Source: Muricea muricata
Taxonomy: Eukaryota; Cnidaria; Anthozoa; Malacalcyonacea; Plexauridae
Length of the DNA stretch: 64,000 nucleotides
Direction of reading: 5' to 3'
Assembly (NCBI GenBank): GCA_963855995.1
Contig: OY979719.1
Coordinates: 5,084,001 to 5,148,000 of the forward strand
Positions 14,571-59,241 of the stretch are shown here, piece by piece (within the stretch, counting starts at the first letter, position 1; every line of letters begins with the position of its first letter). The notes beneath the pieces are model-generated. The model made no database searches, had not been told where the DNA came from, and saw only the letters and a program-made list of their open reading frames with translations. The position numbers were made by a program, and so were the translations under genes.

Positions 14571-14800
<230 letters not shown>

Positions 14801-41932: not shown

Positions 41933-44900
41933 TCAAACACTGGTCTCGTCACCCAACTCTGCCAAAACTCTGGTGCTGAATGCTCGAGGTACTTGCTGTT
42001 GCCTTCTTTCAATTTCTTTCTGTTGCTTCCGTCTCTCGATTTCTCTCTGCAGAGCCTGCCTGTATTCCTCGTACTTATACACGACCTGCTCCAAATCTTT
42101 CTTGTACAGGCGTTTCAACATTGTCTGATAGCAGTCGAGTTCTGGGTAACGAAACAAATCCCACTAAAATAAAAAATACTCTCCTTGAAAACAAAACATT
42201 TACTCGACCATTTGTGATGTAATAATTTATAATATAGCATTTGTAAATCCTGAACGCTGAGTGGCTAAGAGCCGTGTTGATATAACTCTATGTCAACACG
42301 GAAAATTTCCCGCCACTCTTCTGTTGAAGTTCTTTGTGCTATATTATAAAAGAAATATAAAACTTTTTTCCGAATTGATATACAGTTATATCAACACCCG
42401 TGGAATTTGGAAAAACTCGAAATTGTGTGGAAACACGACGCCCGCAGGGCGGAGAGAAGAGTGGCGGGAAATTTTCCGTGTTGACATAGAAGTATGAAGT
42501 GTGTTTATGTGCGCACTGATCTCTATATGAAACTACACACTGAATTGGGCCGCCTATGGTTACTCTGAGTCTATATGCACGCTGGGCAAGCTGAAAAACA
42601 TGGCTAACCATGGTGGGAATCGAACCTAGGCCGGCAATGCTAGCCCAGTGCTTTGCCAACTGAGCTACGCGGTCAGGTCGGTTCATGGGCCAATTACAAG
42701 ACAAATGAAAAGAAGCATAGCCAGTAAAACGGAGCATACGTAAAGATAAGTGGAAAAGATTTTGGGCGACACAAGTGTCGTATCTGCGCAATGAGAATTG
42801 CTTAACTTTGATTATGTAGTGTTACCTTGAGATATTCATCGTACTCTGACGAGGCTGTGGAGTAGGATTGAAGCCAGCCTGGTATTTCTGAAAACACAAT
42901 TACAAGATAACTATAGTTCAGCCATGGTAAGCAAGGGATCCTGGGTGGCATTTACAGAACAGGCACAAATATTGATGCAAGGTTGTTGGACAACACTTGA
43001 GAATTGTTCGATCAATGGTTGTTCGATGTTGATGAAGAACAATAGTTGTTACAATGTTGTTGGAACAAGAGCCAACAATAGTTGATGAAACAAGTTTGTT
43101 GATGCGTGCAGAACAACATTGCAACAATTTGTTGACAATATTGACAAATTTTTTGACAACACCACATTAATGACAACATAGACCTTTTCTGAACTACAAA
43201 GCATGGTGCATTTTAGATTCAGTACAAAATAATTAAATTATCATACCTTATATGGAATTGCTTGTACTGAAGCTATACCAGCATGCATCTTGTTCTCTTA
43301 TTTCAGAAAAGGCCTATTACAATTCATACAATACAGGGTGTCCCAAAAAAGCCTTTCCCCTCCTCCCCGTTAAACTTTGGAGGATAGTTATTTAAGCAAT
43401 ATAATGGCTTAGTTTTTACTCTCTAGCGAAAGTCTAATATCATATATTCCCGAGCCCTTAAATGCGTTATTTTTGCAATTTAAAGAAGCAGGGTCAAAAT
43501 TCAGACTTGTCCAAGTTTTGTACAATTTATTAACATTAATTAAAAATTCAAGAAGTCACTGTACAATGAGAAATTGTTTAACAACACATTTCATTGACAT
43601 AACGAAATATAACGTAAACTACTTTAAATGTCATAACATCAATTTCGTCCTTCAACGTCTCCGCCTTCCACGCATCTTATTGCTCCAGTTCTCATGTCTC
43701 TAATAGCCCGTCTGGCCGTCCTCGTTCGTCTAAATGCCACGAATTCATTAGCGAATCGCTCTCGTAGCTCGTCAATGTTAGCCGGAAACGTTTTGAAAAC
43801 GTGACCCTTGATGTAGCCCCACAAGGAAAAATTTAATGGAGTAAGATCTGGAAATCGTGGCGGCCATTTGTGCTTTTGCTCGAGCGACACCATCCGGTTT
43901 CCAAAGAGCTCGTTCAGCCAAGCCATCACGGCTCTTGCTCAATGCACTGGGGCACCATCTTGCACCCACCATCCTCTACCGAGACGACCATTATTTCTTC
44001 CCTCAAATCTACCTCTGATGTTAGGAACAATAAAGTTATCGATCATTGCCACATAGGTATTGTCTGTGATGTTTCCTTCAAAGAAATATGGTCTCGGAAT
44101 TTCGCCGCTTTCAACGAGACCAGCCCAAACTGCTCACTTCTCTTTACTGCAATTTCGATAATATTCAAAATGTGCAGGCGGTTGATTACGCGGAGCGTAT
44201 GATCGAACGTTCCAGGTATTCACACAACCATCCATACTAAATGCAGTCACGTCACCAATAAGGATGTCCCGCTCAAAGAATCGTGCTGGGCGCGCCTGAA
44301 ACCAATTGCAGAAATTGATACGTCGCTTAACGTCGCCATGAAATAACTGATGTCGAATGATCAGTCGGAACGGGTGAAATTTCAGGTCAAATTTGACAAT
44401 GCGATTAAAGCTTGACTTTGTTAAATGAGGAATATTGTTTCGATGAGTACTGGCCTCAGGGTTGGCAGCCAACTCAGCCCGAACTCCATCAATATTTTAC
44501 TGTGATCTGGCTACGGTTGGGCGATATTTCGATATTTTGATTTATCGCGATATTTTCAATCTCAATTATCGTATCGAAGGAAAAAACTTGAGAGACTTTA
44601 TCGAGATTATTGTCATACTCGATGACTATCGTGATATTGCTTAGAAATCTGCGCATAGCTTGCAAAATCCTAAAAATTAGAAAGTATCTTTGCATCCCAG
44701 CAACACATGTACCTTTAGAAAGTGTATTGAACAAGGTACCGATTACTGTAAATACTTTTCGTCGTAGGCTGAAACTAGAACATGTTGATAATCTAGAGAG
44801 ATGATTTTTTTAAATAACGCGCAACCCTAGATCTGGCTACCAGGACTGCATAAAATTTTTAATATTCTGGTACCCTATGCCTGTCAAAATATTTTCTGCA

Positions 44901-47900: not shown

Positions 47901-50900
47901 TGCTATAGTATACTGCAGAGAGTATACTGGCATGAAATTAGGCATCAAGATGGTCGTAGATGACTGAAATGACTGAATTGTGCACCAATAAATGCTTTTG
48001 CACCTTTCCTAGTGATACACCTATGCATTAGTTACCCAGATCATGCTTCTAGTAGATAGTTGTTTTACCAGATGCGTTTGGTTCAAGACCAGGTGGGATT
48101 GGTGCATTTCCCTGTACAGGCCATTGTGGACCTTCATACGAAGCATACATCTGCAAATCCCTGTTGACTTGTGCGTAAAAACCTGGTGCTGGTGGACTTG
48201 ACATCATAATTCCCTGACCAGTTGGACTATGATTAAAGTTATATATCCTCGAGTCATTCAAATGTGGTTCAGTATAAGCAGAGAAACTTAATCCACTGTA
48301 CGCCTCGTATGGGTTCGAGTAGGACATCCGTTCTTGATTCACTGGTTGTGAACTGCCATATATTGGCCTGGCAAACCGTAACTCTTGACTGCTAGAGTCA
48401 GATTCGTCGTGGCCTTCATTTGTCATGGTTGCTTGATCAACTTTTCTGAAGGGTTTTGAGTTTCTTAACTGCCTGTTTGCAGGCATTATCTGCCCAAATT
48501 GCCTCAGTCCCATGCCCTCAATCACTCGAATATCAGGATAGCTAGCAGCTTGCTGCGCGCTCAAGGGACGATTGAGGACATTTTCTGATCGACTGTACAT
48601 CATTGGCGTTACGCCGTGAAATGCCATGTTGTTCCTCATTTCCCTATATGGTGGAGGATGCCGGTATCGATCTGCAGCATTCTGGGAATGGCCTCGCTGT
48701 ATCCCTACTCTATTTCCATAAGAGGGGGGTGATCTATATGACTGTACCATGTGATCCATATTTGTCTGTAACCCATTGTCCCGGGTATATTGTTCCCCAT
48801 TTTTTCTGAGGTCAACGTCCCTAGAATAGCTCCCCGAGGAATTACCAGATCCTCGACTAAGCCGAGAGTCGTTGGAGTTAACACTGAGCCCATCCGAACC
48901 GGATTCCTCAATGTACTTAGTTCTGTCATGGGACGTTTTGCCTTTCTGTTCTAATGAGCTCTTACTGTACAGCGATGCTGGCCTGCTGTTGCCGTTAACA
49001 GTTGGCAGCTCGATGTATGATTCAGAAATATCTCGAGATGGTATTGGTCGATGTTTGGAAAATTGTCCATCTGCAACGAAATGGGTAAGTTTTGAAATGC
49101 AGGTAATTTTTTATGGATTTTCCAAAGAGCATAACATTTAGCGTTTAAGCCGGAGGTACAATAAAAAGATTCAAGGAAATGATGCTCAAATGGTATACAA
49201 TTGTTTTTGATAGGTGCAACATTATGTAAATGAATATATGTCCATTTATTGACATCGTGCAAACACTGTTTTTAAAACAAGTTAAATTGTCTGGTGTTAT
49301 AGAAAAAAGTATAGAAAAGTCGGTTTATACCACTTGAAATCAGAGAGCATGCCATTCACATAGTACCCCGTAACCTTAACTACCTCATATGCCCCCATTT
49401 GCTAATAGCACACATAGAAACATGTTACGTGTAAACTAGAAAAGGGAAGTTTAATTAAGCCATATTAAAATAACCTAATATTGCTTTTTATGTTGACATT
49501 TATCAAGACAATTCTATTGTAATAACAACAATCAAAAGCTTATCATTACATATTTCCTGGTCCCCCCTGCAGACAAACAGAATTACGGCAATCTAGAACG
49601 TAATACTTCTGTGAAACTACCACAGGATTCACCACAGGATTCGTTCTTTCTAAAATTAACCAATGCGAAGTTACCACAGGACTCAGCGTCATTCGTTCAT
49701 CCCCAAATTAGACGAACGCGAGCTTAGCACAGGATTCAGATCCGGCCACAGCGTGATTAAATATGACGAACTGAACCATGAGTAAACCAGGCAATGTTTT
49801 TTGAAATTAAGGGGCGCGGAACATCCTATTTACTCGAATAACATATCAAACGAAAGCCCATTCTTCGTACTTCACAAATATATCATTTTTAACGTGGCAC
49901 AAATTAGTGGCTTCACTATACGGGACGGCAAACGAGATGAACGCTCCCTGCACCAGAAACTGCATATTAATTTATATTGCAATATTATTTCACGCAATCG
50001 GAAAACGACTGATTTTTGTCGAGAGAAACGGTTCTCATTTGCTTGAATAACATATCGATCGAAAGCCCATATTGCATAGATTACAAGGATGTATTTTTTA
50101 GCCTGGCACAAATTCGTGTCTTCATTCTACGGGCCGAGAAACGAGAGGGAACGCACGCTTGATACTTGTAGCTGCATAATAATTATTTTTGCTCAATCGG
50201 AAATACAACTGACTTTTGTCAAAAGAAACGGTTCTTATTTGCTTGAATAACATATCTATCGAAAGCCCATATCGCATAGATTACAAGAATATATTTTTTA
50301 GCCTGGCACAAATTCGTGTCTTCATTCTACGGGCCGACAAACGAGAGGGAACGCACGCTTGAGACTTGTAGCTGCATAATAATTATTTTTGCTCAATCGG
50401 AAAAACAAGTGATTTTTGACAAGAGAAACGGTTCTTATTTGCTTGAATAACATATTTATCGAAAGCCCATAATGCATGGATTACAAATACGTAATTTCTA
50501 GCCTGGCACAAATTCGCCGTTTTAATCTACGGGCAGCCAAAGGAGACGGAAGGCATGTTTGACATGTTAATTATTTTCCAGCAATGCTAAATACACGCGA
50601 TTTTTGCCAAGAGAAACGGCGCGTATGTCCTTGAGTAACATATCGATAGAAAGCCCGTGGCCTGTATATTACAAAGATGTAATTTTTAGCCTGGCACAAA
50701 TTCGTGCCTACATTCTACGAGACGCGAAACCACAAACAATACACGCATAACAATGTTCGATACTATTGTACGCACTTCCAAAATCAGCGATTTTCGTCCT
50801 CAGAAACGGCTTCTTTCCGCTTGAATGAGCTATCAGCAGAAAGCTAATACATAGTAGATTACGATTATGCGACATTTAAACTGGCACAAATTCATCGATA

Positions 50901-53900
50901 CATTTTACAGCACGGGGAACGCAATAAAACGCCCGCCGCCGATTCGGAATTCCATAACATGCCTTCCGTCCCTCGAAAACTGGCCCGGATTTTAGTCCGA
51001 AAAACGTCTCCAATCCACTTGAAAACATATCAGTAGACACCCCATGCTCCGTAGATTAGAAATATGTTAAATTCAAGCTGGCACAAATTCGTCGCTCCAC
51101 TCTATAGACGAGAAAACGATTTTGTGAAGCTACCACAGGATTCGAACGCTCGAAGACGCATACTAATTAACTCTGACAACGTAAACAACAAACGATGATG
51201 TCATTGAGGAATACGACATGAAAATGTAGTATTCTATAATAATTGACGCGCACGCGAAAACGTGCGATTTTTGAGAGAGAATCATCCCGAATATAGTCGA
51301 ATAGCATATCATTAAAAAGCCCACAGCCTATAGATTACAAATATGTAATTTCTAGCCTGGCACAAATTCGCTGTTTTAATCTACGGAAGGTGAAACAAGT
51401 AGAATGCTAGCTCGACACGTCAAACTGCATATTAATATTTTTTGCGCAATCAAAAATATACGCGATTTTTGTCAAGACAAACGGCTTGTATCTGCTTGAA
51501 TAACATATCGATCGAAAGCCCATATTCCATAGATTACAAGGATATATTTTTTAGCCTGGCACAAATTCGTGTCTTCATTCTACGGGCCGACAAACGAGAG
51601 GGAACGCACGCTTGAGACTTGTAGCTGCATAATAATTATTTTTGCTCAATCGGAAAAACAAGTGATTTTTGACAAGAGAAACGGTTCTTATTTGCTTGAA
51701 TAACATATCTATCGAAAGCCCATAATGCATAGATTACAAATACGTAATTTCTGGCCTGGCACAAACTCGCTGTTTTAATCTACGGAAGGTGAAACAAGTA
51801 GAACGCTAGCTCGACAGGTCAAACTGCATATTAATATTTTTTGCGCAATCAAAAATATACGCGATTTTTGTCAAGACAAACGGCTTCTATCTGCTTGAAT
51901 AACATATCGATCGAAAGCCCATATTCCATAGATTACAAGGATATATTTTTTAGCCTGGCACAAATTCGTGTCTTCATTCTACGGGCCGACAAACGAGAGG
52001 GAACGCACGCTTGAGACTTGTAGCTGCATAATAATTATTTTTGCTCAATCGGAAAAACAAGTGATTTTTGACAAGAGAAACTGTTCTTATTTCCTTGAAT
52101 AACATATCTATCGAAAGCCCATATCGCATAGATTACAAGAATATATTTTTTAGCCTGGCACAAATTCGTGTCTTCATTCTACGGGCCGACAAACGAGAGG
52201 GAACGCACGCTTGAGACTTGTAGCTGCATAATAATTATTTTTGCTCAATCGGAAAAACAAGTGATTTTTGACAAGAGGAACGGTTCTTATTTGCTTGAAT
52301 AATATATCTATCGAAAGCCCATAATGCATAGATTACAAATACGTAATTTCTAGCCTGGCACAAATTCGCCGTTTTAATCTACGGGCAGCCAAAGAAGACA
52401 GAAGGCATGTTTGACATGTTAATTATTTTCCAGCAATGCTAAATACACGCGATTTTTGCCAAGAGAAACGGCGCGTATGTCCTTGAGTAACATATCGATA
52501 GAAAGCCCGTGGCCTGTATATTACAAAGATGTAATTTTTAGCCTGGCACAAATTCGTGCCTACATTCTACGAGACGCGAAACCACAAACAATACACGCAT
52601 AACAATGTTCGATACTATTGTACGCACTTCCAAAATCAGCGATTTTCGTCCTCAGAAACGGCTTCTTTCCGCTTGAATGAGCTATCAGCAGAAAGCTAAT
52701 ACATAGTAGATTACGATTATGCGACATTTAAACTGGCACAAATTCATCGATACATTTTACAGCACGGGGAACGCAATAAAACGCCCGCCGCCGATTCGGA
52801 ATTCCATAACATGCCTTCCGTCCCTCGAAAACTGGCCCGGATTTTAGTCCGAAAAACGTCTCCAATCCACTTGAAAACATATCAGTAGACACCCCATGCT
52901 CCGTAGATTAGAAATATGTTAAATTCAAGCTGGCACAAATTCGTCGCTCCACTCTATAGACGAGAAAACGATTTTGTGAAGCTACCACAGGATTCGAACG
53001 CTCGAAGACGCATACTAATTAACTTTGACAACGTAAACATACAAACGATGATGTCATTGAGGAATACGACATGAAAATGTAGTATTCTATAATAATTGAC
53101 GCGCACGCGAAAACGTGCGATTTTTGAAAGAGAATCATCCCGAATATAGTCGAATAGCATATCATTAAAAAGCCCACAGCCTATAGATTACAAATATGTA
53201 ATTTCTAGCCTGGCACAAATTCGCTGTTTTAATCTACGGAAGGTGAAACAAGTAGAATGCTAGCTCGACACGTCAAACTGCATATTAATATTTTTTGCGC
53301 AATCAAAAATATACGCGATTTTTGTCAAGACAAACGGCTTGTATCTGCTTGAATAACATATCGATCGAAAGCCCATATTGCATAGATTACAAGGATATAT
53401 TTTTTAGCCTGGCACAAATTCGTGTCTTCATTCTACGGGCCGACAAACGAGAGGGAACGCACGCTTGAGACTTGTAGCTGCATAATAATTATTTTTGCTC
53501 AATTGGAAAAACAAGTGATTTTTGATGAGAGAAACGGTCATAATTTGCTTGAATAACATATCTATCGAAAGCCCATATTGCATAAATTACAAGAATATAT
53601 TTTTTAGCCTGGCACAAATTTGTGTCTTCATTCTACGGGCCGACAAACGAGAGGGAACGCACGCTTGAGACTCTTAGCTGCATAATAATTATTTTTGCTC
53701 AATCGGAAAAACAAGTGATTTTTGACAAGAGGAACGGTTCTTATTTGCTTGAATAATATATCTATCGAAAGCCCATAATGCATAGATTACAAATACGTAA
53801 TTTCTAGCCTGGCACAAATTCGCCGTTTTAATCTACGGGCAGCCAAAGGAGACGGAAGGCATGTTTGACATGTTAATTATTTTCCAGCAATGCTAAATAT

Positions 53901-56900
53901 ACGCGATTTTTGCCAAGAGAAACGGTTCGTATCTCCTTGAATAACATATCGATAGAAAGCCCGTGGCCTGTATATTACAAAGATGTAATTTTTAGCCTGG
54001 CACAAATTCGTGCCTACATTCTACGAGACGCGAAACCACAAACAATACACGCATAACAATGTTCGATACTATTGTACGCACTTCCAAAATCAGCGATTTT
54101 CGTCCTCAGAAACGGCTTCTTTCCGCTTGAATGAGCTATCAGCAGAAAGCTAATACATAGTAGATTACGATTATGCGACATTTAAACTGGCACAAATTCA
54201 TCGATACATTTTACAGCACGGGGAACGCAATAAAACGCCCGCCGCCGATTCGGAATTCCATAACATGCCTTCCGTCCCTCGAAAACTGGCCCGGATTTTA
54301 GTCCGAAAAACGTCTCCAATCCACTTGAAAACATATCAGTAGACACCCCATGCTCCGTAGATTAGAAATATGTTAAATTCAAGCTGGCACAAATTCGTCG
54401 CTCCACTCTATAGACGAGAAAACGATTTTGTGAAGCTACCACAGGATTCGAACGCTCGAAGACGCATACTAATTAACTTTGACAACGTAAACATACAAAC
54501 GATGATGTCATTGAGGAATACGACATGAAAATGTAGTATTCTATAATAATTGACGCGCACGCGAAAACGTGCGATTTTTGAAAGAGAATCATCCCGAATA
54601 TAGTCGAATAGCATATCATTAAAAAGCCCACAGCCTATAGATTACAAATATGTAATTTCTAGCCTGGCACAAATTCGCTGTTTTAATCTACGGAAGGTGA
54701 AACAAGTAGAATGCTAGCTCGACACGTCAAACTGCATATTAATATTTTTTGCGCAATCAAAAATATACGCGATTTTTGTCAAGACAAACGGCTTGTATCT
54801 GCTTGAATAACATATCGATCGAAAGCCCATATGCAGCTACAAGTCTCAAGCGTGCGTTCCCTCTCGTTTGTCGGCCCGTAGAATGAAGACACGAATTTGT
54901 GCCAGGCTAAAAAATATATTCTTGTAATCTATGCGATATGGGCTTTCGATAGATATGTTATTCAAGGAAATAAGAACAGTTTCTCTTGTCAAAAATCACT
55001 TGTTTTTCCGATTGAGCAAAAATAATTATTATGCAGCTACAAGTCTCAAGCGTGCGTTCCCTCTCGTTTGTCGGCCCGTAGAATGAAGACACGAATTTGT
55101 GCCAGGCTAAAAAATATATCCTTGTAATCTATGGAATATGGGCTTTCGATCGATATGTTATTCAAGCAGATAGAAGCCGTTTGTCTTGACAAAAATCGCG
55201 TATATTTTTGATTGCGCAAAAAATATTAATATGCAGTTTGACCTGTCGAGCTAGCGTTCTACTTGTTTCACCTTCCGTAGATTAAAACAGCGAGTTTGTG
55301 CCAGGCCAGAAATTACGTATTTGTAATCTATGCATTATGGGCTTTCGATAGATATGTTATTCAAGCAAATAAGAACCGTTTCTCTTGTCAAAAATCACTT
55401 GTTTTTCCGATTGAGCAAAAATAATTATTATGCAGCTACAAGTCTCAAGCGTGCGTTCCCTCTCGTTTGTCGGCCCGTAGAATGAAGACACGAATTTGTG
55501 CCAGGCTAAAAAATATATCCTTGTAGTCTATGGAATATGGGCTTTCGATCGATATGTTATTCAAGCAGATACAAGCCGTTTGTCTTGACAAAAATCGCGT
55601 ATATTTTTGATTGCGCAAAAAATATTAATATGCAGTTTGACGTGTCGAGCTAGCATTCTACTTGTTTCACCTTCCGTAGATTAAAACAGCGAATTTGTGC
55701 CAGGCTAGAAATTACATATTTGTAATCTATAGGCTGTGGGCTTTTTAATGATATGCTATTCGACTATATTCGGGATGATTCTCTCTCAAAAATCGCACGT
55801 TTTCGCGTGCGCGTCAATTATTATAGAATACTACATTTTCATGTCGTATCCTCAATGACATCATCGTTTGTTGTTTACGTTGTCAGAGTTAATTAGTATG
55901 CGTCTTCGAGCGTTCGAATCCTGTGGTAGCTTCACAAAATCGTTTTCTCGTCTATAGAGTGGAGCGACGAATTTGTGCCAGCTTGAATTTAACATATTTC
56001 TAATCTACGGAGCATGGGGTGTCTACTGATATGTTTTCAAGTGGATTGGAGACGTTTTTCGGACTAAAATCCGGGCCAGTTTTCGAGGGACGGAAGGCGT
56101 GTTATGGAATTCCGAATCGGCGGCGGGCGTTTTATTGCGTTCCCCGTGCTGTAAAATGTATCGATGAATTTGTGCCAGTTTAAATATCACAAAATCGTAA
56201 TCTACTATGTATTAGCTTTCTGTTGATAGCTTATTCAAGCGGAAAGAAGCCGTTTCTCGGGACGAAAATTGCTGATGTTCGAAGTGCGTACAATAGTATC
56301 GAACATTGTTATGCGTGTATTGTTTGTGGTTTCGCGTCTCGTAGAATGTAGGCACGAATTTGTGCCAGGCTAAAAATTACATCTTTGTAATATACAGGCC
56401 ACGGGCTTTCTATCGATATGTTATTCAAGGAGATACGAACCGTTTCTCTTGGCAAAAATCGCGTATATTTAGCATTGCTGGAAAATAATTAACATGTCAA
56501 ACATGCCTTCCGTCTCCTTTGGCTGCCCGTAGATTAAAACGGCGAATTTGTGCCAGGCTAGAAATTACGTATTTGTAATCTATGCATTATGGGCTTTCGA
56601 TAGATATATTATTCAAGCAAATAAGAACCGTTCCTCTTGTCAAAAATCACTTGTTTTTCCGATTGAGCAAAAATAATTATTATGCAGCTACAAGTCTCAA
56701 GCGTGCGTTCCCTCTCGTTTGTCGGCCCGTAGAATGAAGACACAAATTTGTGCCAGGCTAAAAAATATATTCTTGTAATTTATGCAATATGGGCTTTCGA
56801 TAGATATGTTATTCAAGCAAATTATGACCGTTTCTCTCATCAAAAATCACTTGTTTTTCCAATTGAGCAAAAATAATTATTATGCAGCTACAAGTCTCAA

Positions 56901-59241
56901 GCGTGCGTTCCCTCTCGTTTGTCGGCCCGTAGAATGAAGACACGAATTTGTGCCAGGCTAAAAAATATATCCTTGTAATCTATGCAATATGGGCTTTCGA
57001 TCGATATGTTATTCAAGCAGATACAAGCCGTTTGTCTTGACAAAAATCGCGTATATTTTTGATTGCGCAAAAAATATTAATATGCAGTTTGACGTGTCGA
57101 GCTAGCATTCTACTTGTTTCACCTTCCGTAGATTAAAACAGCGAATTTGTGCCAGGCTAGAAATTACATATTTGTAATCTATAGGCTGTGGGCTTTTTAA
57201 TGATATGCTATTCGACCATATTCGGGATGATTCTCTTTCAAAAATCGCACGTTTTCGCGTGCGCGTCAATTATTATAGAATACTACATTTTCATGTCGTA
57301 TTCCTCAATGACATCATCGTTTGTATGTTTACGTTGTCAAAGTTAATTAGTATGCGTCTTCGAGCGTTCGAATCCTGTGGTAGCTTCACAAAATCGTTTT
57401 CTCGTCTATAGAGTGGAGCGACGAATTTGTGCCAGCTTGAATTTAACATATTTCTAATCTACGGAGCATGGGGTGTCTACTGATATGTTTTCAAGTGGAT
57501 TGGAGACGTTTTTCGGACTAAAATTCGGGCCAGTTTTCGAGGGACGGAAGGCATGTTATGGAATTCCGAATCGGCGGCGGGCGTTTTATTGCGTTCCCCG
57601 TGCTGTAAAATGTATCGATGAATTTGTGCCAGTTTAAATATCGCATAATCGTAATCTACTATGTATTAGCTTTCTGCTGATAGCTCATTCAAGCGGAAAG
57701 AAGCCGTTTCTGAGGACGAAAATCGCTGATTTTGGAAGTGCGTACAATAGTATCGAACATTGTTATGCGTGTATTGTTTGTGGTTTCGCGTCTCGTAGAA
57801 TGTAGGCACGAATTTGTGCCAGGCTAAAAATTACATCTTTGTAATATACAGGCCACGGGCTTTCTATCGATATGTTACTCAAGGAGATACGAACCGTTTC
57901 TCTTGGCAAAAATCGCGTATATTTAGCATTGCTGGAAAATAATTAACATGTCAAACATGCCTTCCGTCTCCTTTGGCTGCCCGTAGATTAAAACAGCGAA
58001 TTTGTGCCAGGCCAGAAATTACGTATTTGTAATCCATGCATTATGGGCTTTCGATAGATATGTTATTCAAGCAAATAAGAACCGTTTCTCTTGACAAAAA
58101 TCACTTGTATTTCCGATTGAGCAAAAATAATTATTATGCAGCTACAAGTATCAAGCGTGCGTTCCCTCTCGTTTGTCGGCCCGTAGAATGAAGACACGAA
58201 TTTGTGCCAGGCTAAAAAATACATCCTTGTAATCTATGCAATATGGGCTTTCGATCGATATGTTATTCAAGCAAATGAGAACCGTTTCTCTCGACAAAAA
58301 TCAGTCGTTTTTCCGATTGCGTGAAATAATATTGCGATATAAATTAATATGCAGTTTCTGGTGCTGGGAGCGTTCATCTCGTTTGCCGTCCCGTATAGTG
58401 AAACCACTAATTTGTGCCACGTTAAAAATGATATATTTGTGAAGTACGAAGAATGGGCTTTCGTTTGATATGTTTTTCAAGTAAATAGGATGTTCCCGCG
58501 CCCCTTAATTTCAAAAAAGATTGCCTGGTTTACTCATGGTTCAGTTCGTCATAATTAATCACGCTGTGACCGGATCTGAATCCTGTGCTAAGCTCGCGTT
58601 CGTCTAATTTGGGGATGAACGAATGACGCTGAGTCCTGTGGTAACTTCGCATTGGTTAATTTTAGAAAGAACGAATCCTGTGGTGAATCCTGTGGTAGTT
58701 TCACAGAAGTGAACGTAATCTATCTTTCAAAAAACACAGACTGTATCAATTTGGGCCGAGAGGATATATTTACAATACCGTCTGGGTTGCTTGGTATATA
58801 ACAGGGAATAACGATTGACAATGGAATATCGATTCACACAGACCCCTGAATACTTTTTGCTATATTTGCTCAAGTGTCAGTTCAATTGTATCATAAATAT
58901 GAAGTCGTTCCAATCAAGCACTCATGTCGGCGTTTTAATATTTAAACCCACACACGTCAATAACACGAATGTGAACGTAAAAATAACAAATCTATTTAAT
59001 ATTGCCAAAACTATCCATATGTTCGATAAAGCACAAACTGAAGGACCTAAATATGGAATTTCAAGGGCAAACATGTCGAGTTAACGTTACCTCCGCGATT
59101 TGAAAGTTCTCTACTTTGCGTGTTTACTTTTGCATCTCCTCGACCGAGGCTCGGCGACGAAACTCCATTTTTGTTTTTTTCAGCTTTAACCTTGTCTTTT
59201 TTCTCTTTATTCTTCTTAAAATTCTTGCCAAGAAGAGGCAT
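41933..59241 (-). CDS. SAV1: Salvador (SAV1), Hippo-pathway scaffold, eight exons
   Basis: Salvador binds Hippo/MST kinases through its SARAH domain and promotes Warts/LATS phosphorylation. Exons: 59241-59091, 49070-48069, 47117-47036, 46960-46914, 46695-46638, 46306-46191, 42887-42826, 42163-41933; 1749 nt, 582 aa, phases agree throughout. WW1 is at about 394-424 ([26 protein letters not shown]). WW2 is at about 429-458 ([26 protein letters not shown]), with Tyr for the second Trp as in human SAV1. LVPANPY and EIPGWLQ follow, then the SARAH coiled coil from about 507 ([27 protein letters not shown]). Length lies between human (383) and fly (about 607); exon 2 is long and disordered. The first exon is assigned by phase, a basic start ([17 protein letters not shown]) and position, so it is less certain. 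Intron 1 (10 kb) contains the giant foldback element; intron 6 contains a Tc1/mariner element. Confidence 0.92.
42289..42488. mobile_element. Foldback unit with perfect 34-bp inverted arms
   Basis: The arms at 42289-42322 (starts TATGTCAACACGGAAAATTT) and 42455-42488 (starts AGAAGAGTGGCGGGAAATTT) are exact inverted copies. Between them lie secondary partial repeats of the GTTGATATAAC / GTTATATCAAC type, and GCCGTGTTGATATAACTC just outside the left arm echoes the same phrase. It lies in the last SAV1 intron. No coding capacity; superfamily not determined. Confidence 0.75.
42540..42690 (-). mobile_element. tRNA-derived SINE, copy 2
   Basis: On the minus strand the head reads AACCGACCTGACCGCG, then a good pol III A box TAGCTCAGTTGG (42667-42656) and B box GGTTCGATTCC (42626-42616) with the tRNA-like spacing between them, then TGTTTTTCAGC and a tail with GTGCATATAGACTC. 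It lies in the last SAV1 intron. The tRNA part would not fold as a complete tRNA gene, and the shared head and tail with the 28298-28425 copy mark it as a SINE. Confidence 0.85.
42950..43165. repeat. Degenerate TTGTTGACAA / CAACAATG repeat cluster
   Basis: Phrases such as TTGTTGGACAACA, CAATGTTGTTGGAACAA, AGTTGATGAAACAAG and TTGTTGACAATATTGACAA recur throughout, and many can pair with one another. It lies in SAV1 intron 6 and resembles the POLR2G intron cluster at 17200-17500. Confidence 0.6.
43639..44500 (-). pseudogene. Tc1/mariner-like DDE transposase, broken
   Basis: A transposase can be followed in one frame on the minus strand from about 44500 to 43639. Recognisable parts in order are the linker after the paired DNA-binding region ([12 protein letters not shown]), RRINFCNWF, the first catalytic region ([15 protein letters not shown]), [10 protein letters not shown] with the second Asp, and [20 protein letters not shown] with the third catalytic region, followed by a basic tail. 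Two in-frame TGA stops (44136-44134 and near 43942) and a TAA upstream near 44500 interrupt it. At the presumed third catalytic position the usual Asp of the PxDF phrase reads Asn (PLNF). The N-terminal DNA-binding region is displaced or lost beyond the nested element. Not functional. Confidence 0.82.
44515..44829. mobile_element. Element nested in the transposase, about 315 bp, hAT-like
   Basis: It is flanked by an 11-bp direct repeat GATCTGGCTAC (44504-44514 and 44830-44840). The left end GGTTGGGCGATATTTCGATA and right end CGCGCAACCCTAG are imperfect inverted copies around GGGTTG. The AT-rich interior with many CGATA phrases resembles widespread hAT MITEs beginning TAGGGTTGGGCGATA. True duplication length is ambiguous because neighbouring bases match by chance. 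Confidence 0.6.
45277..45563. mobile_element. MITE nested in the Tc1/mariner element, 287 bp
   Basis: The ends CACAGAGTACTACACAGAGA and TCTGTGTCGTACTCTGT are inverted copies with few mismatches, flanked by an exact 8-bp duplication GCCTCTGG (45269-45276 and 45564-45571). Eight-base duplication suggests hAT or P superfamily. It contains a near-perfect internal hairpin (45336-45413). Confidence 0.75.
45336..45413. repeat. Near-perfect 35-bp inverted repeat (hairpin)
   Basis: Arms 45336-45370 and 45379-45413 pair over 35 bp with one mismatch and an 8-nt loop (AATTTTAT). Each arm begins or ends with GTCAGGGGGG/CCCCCCTGAC. A further TTTTTCAGGGGGGTGA phrase at 45456-45471 repeats the arm end outside the hairpin. 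Confidence 0.9.
46405..46570. repeat. Repeat with C/G runs in SAV1 intron
   Basis: A C run (46425-46434), AGCCAGGATTTCCTCCAGGG extending into a G run (about 46457-46466), and another G run (46515-46525) followed by GGCAGCAATCCTG and TCTGGCTATGCCTCTGCCC. This arrangement looks like a decayed interspersed repeat. No ends or duplication could be defined. Confidence 0.4.
47738..47930 (+). repeat. Interspersed repeat family B, copy 2
   Basis: Alignable with 31871-32065 through CAATTGTTTTAGTAGA, TACTCGC-ATCTATC, GAGTAGAG and ATAGTATACT in the same order. It lies in SAV1 intron 2. The element class is unknown. Confidence 0.55.
49605..54830 (+). repeat. Left arm of the foldback element
   Basis: About 24 units of roughly 200 bp, each with CGAAAGCCCA, GATTACAA, CTGGCACAAATTC, a variable middle and a CTTGAATAACATATC end. 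Units form larger modules: a block of about 0.9 kb occurs around 50480-51385, 52330-53240 and 53782-54690. A marker stretch with CCACAGGATTCGAACGCTCG recurs at about 51130, 52986 and 54440, spacings of roughly 1855 and 1454 bp. Copies two and three look nearly identical, while copy one carries a distinct variant. Confidence 0.9.
54831..58710 (-). repeat. Right arm of the foldback element
   Basis: About 18 units of the same families in reverse orientation. The block with the marker stretch occurs at about 55740-55946 and 57205-57411. The stretch 55950 down to 54831 matches left-arm 51100 to about 52210 (same variants, including the rare CTGGCACAAACTCG), while 57205-57411 matches the 52954 and 54408 copies. 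The arm is therefore not a simple mirror of the left arm: module order and number differ, and the central junction joins two different unit phases. Confidence 0.88.

Follow-up and report, generated by a model that had tools for sequence, protein, structure and literature searches.

The 9,106-bp stretch at 49605-58710 of the window is a foldback transposable element, one of 16 complete copies of a mobile family in the genome of Muricea muricata. The window is the whole stretch of DNA analysed, 64,000 nucleotides in length (C4:5084001-5148000; the genome comprises 453 Mb in 74 contigs), and the foldback copies of this genome are known here from assembled sequence. We regard it as fairly probable that the window copy is non-autonomous, has lost its core and belongs to a young family of foldback DNA transposons, in an account under which a mover would act in trans and gene conversion would be centred on a hairpin. 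Foldback elements are already known; here, arms of about 16.5, 17.7 and 26.6 kb, partly read, still lie between perfect target duplications. The copies are young and structurally graded, and two questions become testable with them: by what means palindromes of very great length preserve the identity of their arms, and how repeats within a transposon become higher-order satellite DNA.

The window copy and its family

The element is flanked on both sides by an exact 9-bp target-site duplication, GAACGTAAT, at 49596-49604 on the left and 58711-58719 on the right. As a bare word GAACGTAAT is not rare, since the window contains it three times against 0.69 expected; the duplication carries weight because it abuts both exact ends and because, of the 16 complete pairs in the genome, 15 are flanked by a perfect 9-bp duplication of their own. 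The two ends are identical in their first 60 bases (60/60), and show 98.6% identity over the outermost aligned 213 bp. The left terminal domain (49605-49826, plus strand) contains CACAGGATTC-type boxes at 49620, 49632 and 49728, and the right terminal domain (58489-58710, minus strand) is its mirror in the arm alignment, with boxes starting at 58578, 58673 and 58685. We infer that these boxes are putative transposase sites.

Between the ends lie two arms and nothing else. The left arm (49605-54829, plus strand) is 5,225 bp of units of about 200 bp in higher-order blocks, and the right arm (54830-58710, minus strand) is 3,881 bp in the opposite orientation, the two abutting with 0 bp between them. 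Both were delimited by unit reading and alignment, and Tandem Repeats Finder gives periods of 200 and 399-400 within the element. The arms align at 95.4% over 3,849 positions, and the arm comparison shows 51211-52230 on the plus strand to be complementary to 54830-55849 across 1,020 nt at 100%, without a mismatch. Copies of the element's own end recur inside the arms as five pseudo-termini, recognized by end match and unit reading, at 51124-51143, 52976-52995 and 54430-54449 on the plus strand and at 55916-55935 and 57370-57389 on the minus strand. At the centre (54820-54840), comparison by eye of the junction and its parent units reveals that the arms are joined directly, with 3 bp (TAT) common to both sides, at the site where most other copies hold a core. 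The window copy may have lost its core in a join at this 3-bp common sequence, leaving the arms abutting. A blastn search of the element against the whole window returned no match outside the element itself.

Across the 453-Mb genome, the exact 20-base end has 33 matches, and the same letters reversed, used as a control, have none. These 33 ends make up 15 convergent pairs and three single ends, one of which gains a partner when one mismatch is allowed (C9:7316358-7336560), giving 16 pairs. With three mismatches allowed, the control yields 25 and 37 matches against 37 and 32 for the real end, and such matches are ascribed to chance because the control counts equal the real ones. A longer query, the 222-bp end, finds 43 pieces, of which 32 are the ends of the 16 pairs and the remaining 11 lie at eight other places. 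Among single pieces, C2:38631358-38631579 (L058) is an end without a partner, 95% identical across 222 bp. Two repeats at C1:16.836 and 16.853 Mb (L055 and L056) match the foldback end for no more than its first 51-54 bp and continue as other sequence; they are 91% alike to each other over 232 bp including flank.

The 16 pairs range in length from 5,997 to 40,027 bp and sum to 297,328 bp. The 9-bp duplication is perfect in 15 of them, and each is a different sequence. The sixteenth pair to be recovered, the 20.2-kb C9 copy, has the perfect duplication TCGCAAGTT, and its two ends are unlike, the left being 90% identical to the window copy over 561 bp and the right 100% over 141 bp. The exception is E7 (C3, 27.75 Mb), in which no direct duplication is present and the flanks are inverted, the left end together with 464 bp of flank recurring inverted at the right at 98.2% over 610 bp. 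Because 16 convergent pairs exist, 15 of them with a perfect 9-bp duplication, the structure represents a mobile foldback family and not an assembly error. It is a foldback in the accepted sense, as the inverted repeats are themselves tandem-repetitive, with little or no unique middle, and dispersed copies carry target-site duplications. The earlier note had described exact inverted termini, opposed arms of about 200-bp units and a perfect 9-bp duplication, and had called the whole (49596-58719) a foldback transposable element; the end identity, the arm alignment, the repeat periods and the flanks all bear this description out. It had also proposed a genome search with the 20-base terminus, in which the lack of any other copy would speak against a transposon; the search was run and other copies were found.

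Repeat organization, length and identity of the arms

The arrangement of the units was taken from 20 arm stretches, which do not include the right part of C15 or the interior of either C14 or the 20.2-kb C9 copy, and it is common to all 20. The first unit box lies 285-290 bp from the end. After it, the outer series runs through units of about 209, 200 x k, 188, 190, 197 and 279 bp, and the following blocks through 199, 200 x k, 188, 190, 197 and 279 bp; most of the copies that have a core show units of 199 and 139 bp just before it. Irregular units are found in E5, in the right arm of E8 and in the right arm of the window copy. The commonest higher-order block is about 1,453 bp, and block spacings near 1,252, 1,653 and 1,853 bp correspond to fewer or more 200-bp units. 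Each block contains one pseudo-terminus in the same orientation as the element's own end.

Estimated arm lengths extend from about 1.9 to about 26.6 kb, the longest having been partly read. The latter belongs to C4b, a copy of 38.7 kb, whose left arm of about 26.6 kb includes 4.5 kb outside the stretch read and whose right arm of about 4.9 kb includes 3.2 kb outside it. The left arm of C4b also contains a 5,160-bp super-repeat, present only there among the copies read. In C8, a copy of 40.0 kb, the arms are about 16.5 and 17.7 kb, with about 4.5 kb of each outside the stretch read. Copies with near-identical cores have unlike arms, being 3.2 and 6.1 kb in E6, 3.6 kb on the left of C15, and about 16.5 and 17.7 kb in C8. 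The arms, as satellite-like repeats, shift in length much faster than in letters. In the mechanism that we propose, arm length would change by whole units of about 200 bp and about 1.45 kb (5.16 kb in one copy), as unequal exchange or copying within the array adds or removes them.

These same lengths bear on another account, namely that the foldbacks were short at insertion and ordinary satellite expansion lengthened their arms afterwards, so that the 40-kb forms never moved as such. The several-fold difference in arm length between copies with near-identical cores agrees with it, as does the confinement of the super-repeat to C4b among the copies read. However, the block grammar and its pseudo-terminus are common to copies at different sites, and multi-block arms therefore predate insertion, which does not by itself fix the length at which any copy inserted. 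We consider growth in place unlikely, yet deserving of serious weight.

The identity between the arms differs from the centre to the ends. In ten elements, a segment of the core measuring at most 1.15 kb was compared (the right arm of C11 gives 787 positions), and the two arms of the same element show seven differences in 11,053 positions (0.06%) against a mean of 0.38% between elements. The arms are sisters in seven of the ten, and in the other three, C8, C15 and E6, all six arms have the same sequence in this segment apart from one base. The terminal comparison includes 14 elements and 28 arms, leaving out E7 and the 20.2-kb C9 copy. Over the terminal 230 bp, the difference is 1.40% within and 1.99% between elements, and an arm's own partner is a nearest neighbour for nine of the 28 arms; over the next 270 bp inward, the values are 2.35% and 3.41%, and the own partner is nearest for seven of 28. 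The outward gradient is statistical rather than clean, since four elements (E3, E5, C11 and C14) have identical terminal 230 bp in both arms. The innermost repeat block is intermediate, with sister arms in E2, E3, E4 and E6, and not in E8.

Homogenization of whole arms is unsupported, because distances within an arm are not smaller on average than those between elements. Among 56 blocks, the mean distance is 4.3% in the same arm, 4.3% in the other arm and 3.6% in another element; the medians are 2.0, 2.3 and 2.6%, a few odd blocks lifting the means. Both arms of C8 share an identical stretch of 432 bp (L034 2602-3033 and L036 4102-4533), which has no match in the other loci compared. Inner-arm identity with diverged outer ends fits gene conversion centred on a hairpin, and in our reading conversion would act mainly near the centre, with the outer ends exchanged among copies. 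We propose that the centre of the palindrome forms a hairpin, and that breaks there are mended with one arm serving as template for the other; such repair would keep the inner arms identical, leaving the outer ends to diverge and to be exchanged between elements. A younger core could also, in part, account for the lower variation between elements in the core than at the ends, instead of conversion. The contrast between identical inner arms and diverged outer ends is a measurable prediction for hairpin-centred conversion.

More speculatively, and in our judgement rather unlikely, these elements might be mobile palindromic satellites. Their arms would amplify themselves, each repeat of about 1.45 kb would carry a spare end usable by the transposase, and the arms would be gained, lost and copied onto one another from the hairpin centre outward, renewing the symmetry and seeding dispersed satellite arrays. 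If this were true, a route from transposon to satellite DNA would have been caught in the act.

Core, mover and nested elements

A core with a loop gene is present in 12 of the 16 copies and absent from the window copy, E9, E5 and E7. In E4, the two sides enclose a loop of about 870 bp and match each other at 99.5% over 4,142 bp of inner arm and core. The loop frame is 153 aa from stop to stop, and has a C2H2 zinc-finger match under the Pfam cut-off (E 2.3e-4). A stop 128 codons past the ATG is common to all ten copies of the frame that were read, and the 18 variable codons (13 with residue-changing differences only, four with silent ones only, one mixed) show no sign of selection. The genome contains at least 150 relatives of the frame among the best 150 of 602 candidates, in many of which the frame reaches 215-235 aa, while it has 153 aa in the 12 foldback copies. 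The common early stop and the longer relatives elsewhere make the loop frame read as a truncated captured copy, and, together with the codon pattern, rule it out as a working gene. The claim that the element has no coding content thus stands for the window copy, in which every stop-to-stop frame is shorter than 90 aa, and fails for the 12 copies with the captured gene. In the centre of E5, which has no match to the other loci compared, the longest frames are 114 and 126 aa.

No transposase gene was found in or near a copy, either in the copies read or among the MULE domain matches listed, and the copies read have no frame above 193 aa outside E7 or stretches read as nested elements. The large frames of E7 were considered as foldback genes and rejected, as they belong to a 4.9-kb insert with inverted ends and to a Harbinger with a TAA duplication. 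This insert (L022 1147-6080) has inverted ends of 340 bp (99%), a 518-aa frame and no clear target duplication. Further frames of E7 lie in L023 and L024, one of them with a sub-threshold Pox_A32 match.

In the mechanism we favour, a transposase supplied in trans, probably Mutator-like, would bind the end boxes and move the element by cut and paste. Mutator (MULE) elements make target duplications of about 8-11 bp, a range that includes the 9 bp found at 15 of the 16 pairs. P-superfamily elements make duplications of 7-8 bp, 7 bp in Galileo, and the 9 bp seen here lies outside that range. The length is not specific to Mutator, since the AcademH duplications given in the excerpted account are 9 or 10 bp (PMC10045372), which also takes in the 9 bp found here. 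Membership in Mutator is unproven, as no transposase was found and the assignment rests on duplication length and precedent.

A mover from another superfamily, for example an AcademH-like one, is a minority possibility that we think doubtful rather than negligible. It would agree with the position of the MULE domains, of which the genome has at least 103 (among the best 150 of 269 candidates); among the matches listed, none lies inside or near a copy, and the nearest is 68.8 kb from any of the 43 ends. It would agree also with a solitary end at C1:87.26 Mb (26 bp of exact match, followed by about 130 bp at 77-79%), 0.4 kb inside which lies a gene without a Pfam match. Eight open frames follow inside this end with no convincing Pfam match, two of them adjacent and in frame with a stop between. 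However, the copy of this gene on C11, 97.4% identical, starts some 417 bp inward of the end and lacks the foldback end itself, so that the gene is a separate element and was rejected as the mover. Foldback elements with 8-10-bp duplications have, moreover, been ascribed to Mutator in the parts of two reports cited here (PMC4079207, PMC3169594).

A large multi-exon gene, represented at L052 3311-8622 (minus strand) and by an exon at C11:6099432-6100838, has no convincing Pfam match and at least 94 genome matches, whose open frames reach 2,735 aa. It is possibly a big unnamed family of mobile genes. The 469-aa exon has no relative among viral contigs, and another exon of the gene has no match in PDB.

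A Polinton/Maverick is nested in the right arm of E1 (C1, about 9.683-9.699 Mb; L010 812 to L011 6945). Among its several long frames, an integrase with chromodomain and a DNA polymerase B were matched, while capsid and protease frames were named by eye, with no Pfam match. A descent of the foldback family from Polinton/Maverick is very improbable. The presence of this element in E1 is in its favour, as is a frameshifted relative, in the inner arm and core, of a RING-type Polinton frame (tblastn E 5e-23; the RING match of that frame is sub-threshold in Pfam), but the relic is better read as a captured fragment. Polintons make 6-bp target duplications, and the one in E1 has its own ends and its own 6-bp duplication, TACATA, inside the arm, whereas the foldback ends are flanked by 9 bp; it is thereby ruled out as the autonomous form of the family. 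Least probable of all, to the point of being scarcely credible, is an assembly artefact or one-off inverted duplication with no transposon: giant palindromes are prone to misassembly and the inverted duplication of E7, real or artefactual, takes in 464 bp of flank, but perfect and differing duplications mark 15 of 16 pairs of varied size and site, and the site of the nested Polinton has an uninterrupted counterpart in E8.

Known systems and the SAV1 locus

FB/NOF of Drosophila melanogaster and TU of sea urchin have the same foldback architecture as the elements described here. By description, the closest known system is Tetris of Drosophila virilis, which, in the portion of its report cited here (PMC4079207), is likewise a non-autonomous foldback with tandem repeats of about 220 bp in its inverted repeats, 8-10-bp target duplications, inner repeats that also occur as satellite-like arrays, and no autonomous partner found. 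That portion gives three structurally complete copies for Tetris, against 16 complete pairs of up to 40 kb here, and the higher-order repeat of about 1.45 kb carrying a copy of the terminus is, on a comparison by description, found here and unlike Tetris. Galileo, of the P superfamily, resembles the family in its long, internally repetitive inverted repeats, with units of about 210 bp in one subfamily, in its chimeric copies, and in having arm length as its most variable part; it differs in inverted repeats of up to about 1.26 kb and a 7-bp duplication against 9 bp here, as far as the excerpted source goes (PMC3573991). Tm1, a Mutator/Foldback family of root-knot nematodes, is similar in its composite inverted repeats, which vary in length and contain tandem units, and in its target duplications, mostly of 9 bp and without consensus. 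Unlike the present family, it is described in extracts of PMC3169594 as having elements of about 1-2.6 kb and units of about 14 bp, and it has a transposase-bearing member, whereas none was found here. In the excerpts of open-licence literature consulted (including PMC4079207, PMC3573991, PMC3169594 and PMC6431247), we found no family of foldback elements whose arms exceed a few kilobases or whose higher-order unit contains the terminus.

The earlier note had placed the element inside intron 1 of SAV1, a gene of the Hippo pathway. The nearest exon frame lies at 48049-49110 on the minus strand (open frames and Pfam; exon start about 49070 by eye), and other SAV1-like frames on that strand lie near 47.1 kb (LPPGWSVDW), 46.6 kb and 46.2 kb (LVPANPY). 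From their WW motifs and resemblance by eye, we take these frames to be SAV1; their WW matches are below the curated Pfam cut-off. The element lies about 0.5 kb upstream, in the sense of the gene, of the frame at 48049-49110. The exon frames support the gene assignment. The search for exon 1 gave only a weak candidate near 60.34-60.39 kb with no clear splice donor, and, as exon 1 was not found, the location in intron 1 is plausible and not shown. If both arms were transcribed together, the RNA could form a hairpin on the scale of kilobases, making double-stranded RNA, editing, effects on splicing and small RNAs from the arms possible.

No telomere was seen at the contig starts that were read. 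Elsewhere in the window, broken frames at 43639-44496 on the minus strand have, by eye, the look of a mariner-type transposase, and a 230-bp AT microsatellite occupies 14571-14800.
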